DNA of 64,000 nt, from NCBI GenBank assembly GCA_003132145.1, contig PKWU01000033.1:62001-126000 (forward strand), written 5' to 3'. This document shows, one piece after another, positions 28,949 through 44,402 of the stretch (positions are counted from its first letter, which is position 1; every line of letters begins with the position of its first letter). Made by a program: the position numbers and the translations under genes. Origin of the DNA: Granulicella sp. (GTDB taxonomy: Bacteria; Acidobacteriota; Terriglobia; Terriglobales; Acidobacteriaceae). The notes below the pieces were generated by a model, which had not been told where the DNA came from, did not search any database, and saw nothing but the letters and a program-made list of their open reading frames with translations.

Positions 28949-29018
28949 ATCAGCAACAGGGGCGCAGAAGCAACCAGCAACAGTGCAACGGCGCGACCTA
29001 TACCAGCCTGGGGCGAAC

Positions 29019-29048
29019 GGGGTCCCCGGCGAGCCTGCTCGCTGGGGT
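29019..29048. repeat. Palindromic repeat GGGGTCCCCGGCGAGC..GCTCGCTGGGGT (intergenic copy)
   Basis: 11-bp inverted repeat with one mismatch; shared with 44069-44103. Confidence 0.8.
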
Positions 29049-29130
29049 AGGAAGCCCCAGGTACTAGCCGCAAACAAACCCTTAGGGCTGAAAGGCCGCC
29101 CCATAGTTACGGGAAGCAGAGTTTAGCCAT

Positions 29131-43505: not shown

Positions 43506-44402
43506 ATGACCCTCCGCGAAGCCCTCACGCGCGCCACCCGCCAGCTCGACGCTTCACCCGGCCTGTGCGCCGATGCCGCGCGAGACGCCGCGCTTCTGCT
43601 TCGCCACGCGCTGGGAATCTCTCACGCCGCCCAGCTCGCCGACCCCAACCGCGCGCTCACGCCCGCGCAGCAGGCCGCGTATGACGCGCTGATTCAGCGC
43701 CGCCGAGCCAGCGAGCCGATCCAGTACATCACCGGCGAGCAGGAGTTCTACGGCCTTGCCCTCCGCGTCACCCCCGCCGTCCTCATCCCGCGCCCCGAGA
43801 CCGAGCAGCTCGTCGAAGCCGTCCTTGCCGAGTTGGATGGTGCAAGACCGCTGCGAATTCTCGACGTTGGCACCGGCTCGGGAGCCATCGCCATCGCGCT
43901 GGCCCACCACCTGCCCCATGCTTCCATCACCGCCGTCGATCTCTCCTCCGCGGCCCTCGAAGTTGCCGCGTCGAACGCCGCGCGCCACGCGCTCACTGAT
44001 CGCATCCGCTTCCTCGCGTCCGACCTACTCGCCGCGCTCCCACTCGACGAGTCCCTCTTCGACGCTCCGGGGTCCCCGGCGAGCGGTCTTGGCTCGCTGG
44101 GGTGGGACGCAATCGTCGCGAACCCGCCCTACGTTCCCACCGCCGACCGCGACGCCCTCCATCCCCAGGTGCGCGACCACGAGCCCACCGCCGCGCTCTT
44201 CGCCGGCCACGACGGCCTGGACATCTATCGCCGCCTCATCCCCCAGGCGCGCGCCGCGCTGCGGTCCAACGGCCTGCTCGCCCTCGAGATCGGCCACAAC
44301 CAGCGCGAAGCCATTGCATCTCTGTTATCTGACTGGGGCCAGCTCCGTTTCCTCGACGACCTGCAACAAATCCCCCGCGTAGCCCTCGCCCGCAAGCCAT
44401 GA
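43506..44402 (+). CDS. prmC: Release factor glutamine methyltransferase PrmC with a repeat-derived internal insertion
   Basis: ILDVGTGSGAIAIALA, IVANPPYVP; internal APGSPASGLGSLGWD encoded by a palindromic repeat. Confidence 0.93.
   Translation: MTLREALTRATRQLDASPGLCADAARDAALLLRHALGISHAAQLADPNRALTPAQQAAYDALIQRRRASEPIQYITGEQEFYGLALRVTPAVLIPRPETEQLVEAVLAELDGARPLRILDVGTGSGAIAIALAHHLPHASITAVDLSSAALEVAASNAARHALTDRIRFLASDLLAALPLDESLFDAPGSPASGLGSLGWDAIVANPPYVPTADRDALHPQVRDHEPTAALFAGHDGLDIYRRLIPQARAALRSNGLLALEIGHNQREAIASLLSDWGQLRFLDDLQQIPRVALARKP
44069..44103. repeat. Palindromic repeat GGGGTCCCCGGCGAGC..GCTCGCTGGGGT inside prmC
   Basis: Same 16-mer and 12-mer as the intergenic copy at 29019-29048. 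Confidence 0.85.

Follow-up and report, generated by a model that had tools for sequence, protein, structure and literature searches.

The window, a 64-kb stretch of DNA, comes from a 3.17-Mb draft genome of the Granulicella/Edaphobacter group in 89 contigs (G000), and carries prmC on its forward strand (43506..44402), encoding a peptide chain release factor N5-glutamine methyltransferase of 298 amino acids (TIGR03534, E=1e-83) whose best Foldseek fold match is 2b3t, the E. coli PrmC-RF1 complex (E=1.9e-29, TM 0.94 on target). Within the gene lies a palindromic element of 40 bp (44066..44105, +), TCC-GGGGTCCCCGGCGAGC-GGTCTTG-GCTCGCTGGGG-TGG, bounded by the direct repeat GACGC. On the sequence this repeat is a putative target-site duplication, its left copy (44061..44065, +) being a single copy in empty sites and its right copy (44106..44110, +) running on into the conserved DAIVxNPPY codons. 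The initial annotation had reported that an intergenic palindrome at 29019-29048 recurs within prmC, and this holds: the two copies share an exact 16-mer (29019-29034 and 44069-44084) and both run on into the 3' arm GCTCGCTGGGGT. The intergenic copy (29019..29048, +), which has a short loop (CT) and is matched by the covariance model at G000:C6:91014-91054 with 56 bits, is indeed present where it was placed, within the loop of a further hairpin, CCTGGGGC / GCCCCAGG (29007..29061, +). A composite akin to this nested hairpin is also found in G025 (L101:2564).

Two exact 16-mer matches within the 64-kb window are thin evidence by themselves, and it is the whole-genome searches that settle the matter. 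Across the 3.17 Mb of G000 the 16-mer has 21 exact matches against 0 for the reversed control, and a covariance model built on 19 distinct copy sequences finds 48 element copies in this genome. G021 has 2 copies, G008 has 1 and G022 has none; all of the key genomes are draft metagenome-assembled genomes, and element copies were examined as individual loci. The complete 37-nt prmC element is matched exactly elsewhere in G000 (G000:C13) and in two relatives besides G008, the carrier of the same prmC insert. The consensus of 35-40 bp reads YC-GGGG-T-CCCCGGCGAGC-loop-GCTCGCTGGGG-T-GR, with the ends written as YC-GGGGTCCCC...GGGGTGR, and forms an imperfect 11-bp stem with a GGGGT bulge on the 5' side and a loop of 2 or, mostly, 6-7 nt; C-GGGG stands on the 5' side in 19/19 aligned sequences. 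As DNA the prmC element folds into a hairpin of -13 kcal/mol (z -3.1). It contains no stop codon in any of the six frames, and the Rfam search matched it to no family.

Relative to empty sites, prmC carries 45 additional bp, made up of the 40-bp element and the 5-bp duplication GACGC; the extent of 44069-44103 given in the initial annotation lies inside the element (44066-44105) and falls short of the insertion. The filled site reads ttcGACGC[tccGGGGTCCCCGGCGAGCGGTCTTGGCTCGCTGGGGTGG]GACGCaatc, and the corresponding empty sites read TTTGACGCCATC in G021, TTGGACGTTATC in G037 and TTCGCCGCCATC in G056, with GACGC/GACGY in single copy in those of G021 and G037. The insert lengthens PrmC by 15 residues just N-terminal of NPPY (...DESLFDAPGSPASGLGSLGWDAIVANPPYVPTADR), the element coding for residues 187-200, and the translation D-APGSPASGLGSLGW-D-AIVANPPYVP bears out the earlier claim of a coding copy immediately before IVANPPYVP in a gene that is PrmC. 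That homologues normally have a short loop here also proved correct: between the motif that follows strand 3 and NPPY, 36 of the 38 PrmCs compared, from Acidobacteriota, Bacillota and others, have 15-21 residues, and the only intervals of 33 are those of the window and G008 (L192). No distant homologue has the long loop, and the site is empty in every other genus member read across it. In the AlphaFold2 model of PrmC (mean pLDDT 94) the only run below 50 is at 191-196, within the insert, between a helix and strand 200-205. The lengthened protein is thus predicted to keep the PrmC fold with only the insert disordered, and from Rossmann methyltransferase topology the inserted loop should lie away from the AdoMet pocket.

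The insertion in prmC is one of many. In G000 no fewer than 14 of 48 copies, prmC included, lie in frame within conserved genes, a gene being counted where profile matches flank the element or where it could be aligned with element-free orthologues. NCBIfam profiles on the spanning open reading frames place copies in prmC, tsaD, glyS, lpxD, era, nadA, hemW, hisA and grpE, and further in a PseC/DegT-type aminotransferase and a CocE/NonD hydrolase; ortholog alignment adds ggt, aguA and folP (ggt and folP being named by motif recognition together with the alignment). Relatives carry intragenic copies in the genes for CCA tRNA nucleotidyltransferase and recG (both G056), mnmE (G034), mutS2 and agmatine deiminase. 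At least five of the element's six frames are used, giving for example GSPASGLGSLGW, GVPGERTLLAGV, HPSEQRPLAGDP, TPASQDRSPGTP and PQRASSPGTP. Among copies with coding signal on both flanks on one strand, 10 keep the frame and 1 breaks it (binomial p=1e-4 at 1/3).

Comparison of orthologues reveals states before and after insertion. In ggt, a clean 15-residue insertion, again of 40+5=45 bp and flanked by the direct repeat AGCAG, is confined to G000. In lpxD, glyS and nadA an older in-frame repeat is present in G037, and in hisA one is present in G056; in each case G000 has the element inside that repeat. The loop after SGGHTHLYL in TsaD holds four different inserted segments in G000, G037, G056 and G021 (L141, L319-L321), which makes this loop a hot spot for insertions in an enzyme of tRNA modification that is essential. 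The aguA element is present in G000, G021 and G034 (two copies) and absent from G056 and G008; such patchy presence implies that gains and losses are frequent. The initial annotation is correct yet says too little, the prmC copy being one of about 48 in this genome. Many copies (L001, L014, L015, L017, L019, L146, L150) are nested at the same place in the hairpin CATTCCGCAGCG...GCGGAGGAATC, and further hosts are the repeats GGGTGCCCCA... and GTCATTCTGAG... and the GTTCCCTG arrays; the repeats here form a layered ecology.

Taken together, these data make it very probable that we are dealing with a tiny palindromic mobile element, non-autonomous, that has spread within this clade of the Acidobacteriaceae and is tolerated in frame in genes. 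The element would insert at many sites, apparently leaving a short target duplication, and its mobility would probably depend on transposition in trans. Since it is free of stops in all six frames, insertions with an overall length divisible by three, as in prmC and ggt, would lengthen the protein rather than end it. Where an insertion lands in a surface loop of a conserved protein, it would be tolerated and would persist or later be lost, precisely so, it appears, in some lineages. In prmC the outcome would be a flexible loop of 15 residues gained at the start of the strand that bears NPPY, a loop that we take to reflect tolerance rather than function.

A less likely account makes the element a REP proper, which a RAYT (TnpA-REP, a Y1 transposase) would spread through single-stranded DNA and whose insertion into genes would be a by-product. 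Its size, its bulged hairpin and the G-rich tetranucleotide (GGGG) 5' of the palindrome fit such an origin, and a profile search detects PF01797 (RAYT/IS200-type, Y1 transposase) genes in 9 of 12 genomes; acidobacterial RAYT-like genes with GGGGWSAS terminal repeats have moreover been described (PMC3733652). The element, however, has no GTAG/CGTC tag, its GGGGTCCC is at odds with GGGGWSAS, and the Y1 genes of the clade are not flanked by it: among 30 PF01797 loci on draft contigs, scanned with the model of the element, only one has a copy within about 1.5 kb (a single copy, ~1 kb off), which is no more than chance. A search of the 12 genomes for a mobilizing enzyme or parent insertion sequence, with PF01797 as the family searched, found none. 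Among 35 independent copies, 10 have direct repeats of ≥5 bp at their flanks where 1.5 would be expected (0/500 permutations), the count being based on 35 independent contexts and shared host repeats inflating the value on 80 copies. Flanking direct repeats are not expected from IS200/REP chemistry, and those seen here favour insertion with target duplication over plain RAYT chemistry. They are 4-7 bp long and offset by 0-5 from the palindrome, untidy for one transposase, and most copies have no detectable flanking duplication.

Two further explanations concern the prmC loop itself. That it is ordinary variation in loop length, the repeat match being coincidence or codon bias, has next to no probability. 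The sequence is GC-rich and encodes a peptide rich in glycine, serine and alanine in a variable loop, but codon bias, which had been named as a possible explanation of the match, fails against exact repeats of 37 nt, and chance is refuted together with it by the absence of reversed-control matches, by the 15-21 residues of all other homologues and by the duplication of GACGC relative to single-copy empty sites. Co-option, in which the peptide or the DNA/RNA hairpin would be under selection, for instance through contacts of PrmC with the release factor, through the folding of the mRNA or through the rate of translation, is improbable. In its favour, G000 and G008 agree at 44/45 positions of the 45-nt insert, against 76% identity over the remainder of prmC; at four-fold sites, identity is 76/140 (54%) in the rest of the gene and 11/12 in the insert (Fisher p=0.01), a comparison with only ~12 informative sites. 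The aguA copy common to G000 and G021 is, unlike the prmC insert, visibly diverged. Against co-option, the insert is modelled as disordered, parallel gain or short-tract transfer would yield the same identity, and the insert is absent from G037 and G056, both nearer to G000 than is G008. A tree built from 8 genes (933 aligned residues) places G008 outside G000/G056/G037, with support of 93 for the trio and 74 for the node joining G008. The window and G008 alone carry the interval of 33, and the species between them are empty.

The near-identity of the two inserts, of which that in G008 is the sole copy of its genome, could reflect an old gain followed by repeated precise loss and conservation, a parallel gain, or a short-tract transfer. 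Transfer of a long tract of prmC is rejected: the sequence around the insert shows no raised nucleotide identity (left ~0.7, right 0.82-0.89), and a transferred tract must therefore have been very short at most. G034, which lies outside G000/G056/G037/G008 in the same tree with modest support, may be filled as well, because an assembly gap (NN) in its prmC (L060:720-900) follows directly on TTCGACGCTC, which forms the left edge of the filled allele. One element copy of G034 likewise contains NN, and the nadA copy L157 has an ambiguous base in it; short-read assemblies seem to be broken by short palindromes. A broader proposition can be offered only tentatively: that, across a free-living bacterial clade, conserved proteins are lengthened by a 40-bp element that inserts in frame, repeatedly and in layers, at the same surface loops, and that between species the nucleotide sequence of the prmC segment is maintained or is gained anew time and again.

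The behaviour of the element is close to that of the palindromic elements of Rickettsia (RPE) and Wolbachia, which lie in frame in many unrelated conserved genes, are tolerated on the protein surface and vary in presence between related species (PMC3767692, PMC10969869). Here too a multi-copy palindrome (48 copies, 11-bp stem) stands in frame in pre-existing conserved genes that have empty sites in relatives (prmC, ggt and others), with a patchy distribution among related species. The analogy to the Rickettsia elements drawn in the initial annotation is apt in the sense of "works like", a likeness of behaviour that implies no kinship of sequence: RPEs proper are 100-150 bp long and belong to obligate intracellular alphaproteobacteria (Rickettsiales), whereas the present element, at 35-40 bp, is far shorter and resides in peat and soil Acidobacteriaceae. 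Unlike RPEs, it has flanking direct repeats and often lies within other palindromic repeats. REPs of the GTAG and CGTC superfamilies, hairpins of 20-40 bp, also occur in frame in genes of repair and RNA metabolism such as uvrA and tRNA pseudouridine synthases (PMC3733652), and the present element resembles them as a short intragenic hairpin; it differs in having no tetranucleotide tag, in not adjoining RAYT genes, in its direct repeats and in the share of copies that lie within genes, at least 14 of 48. In tnpA-REP subclass 2.4 a REP-like sequence is in frame in a peripheral variable region (PMC6006769), there within a transposase gene and here within housekeeping genes. MITEs, which typically measure 70-300 bp (PMC3733652) and can make in-frame fusions when intragenic (PMC10969869), share with the element a non-coding, palindromic, multi-copy nature and short direct repeats at the ends; the element is far shorter, and the excess of direct repeats over expectation that would place it among them is of variable length and offset.

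We found no report of protein-coding palindromes in Acidobacteriota in the literature; RepRanger gives many REPs for Granulicella aggregans and treats REPs as extragenic. Protein-coding palindromes have been portrayed as peculiar to Rickettsia and Wolbachia, together with scattered REPs elsewhere, and here a notable number of the core genes of a free-living clade contain them. Sister genomes preserve the before and after states, two-step nested insertions included. Selfish palindromes as a source of new protein segments, and the rate at which these are gained, lost or fixed, thereby become testable. It is also a warning that housekeeping enzyme sequences from these metagenome-assembled genomes include repeat-derived loops. 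Two related observations may be added. An element related to the present one, with conserved flanks (..AAGGTGGGYATCGTGCAAACC[..]TGGAAAGCACGACCG..), occurs in several species of the genus, at L023 (G050), L081 (G007) and L094. A second palindrome family, CATCCCGCAGCG...GAAGGGATC, lies in frame in the prmC linker before motif I in G021 (L059) and G056 (L073), at residue ~113, so that prmC has been struck at two sites by two repeat families.
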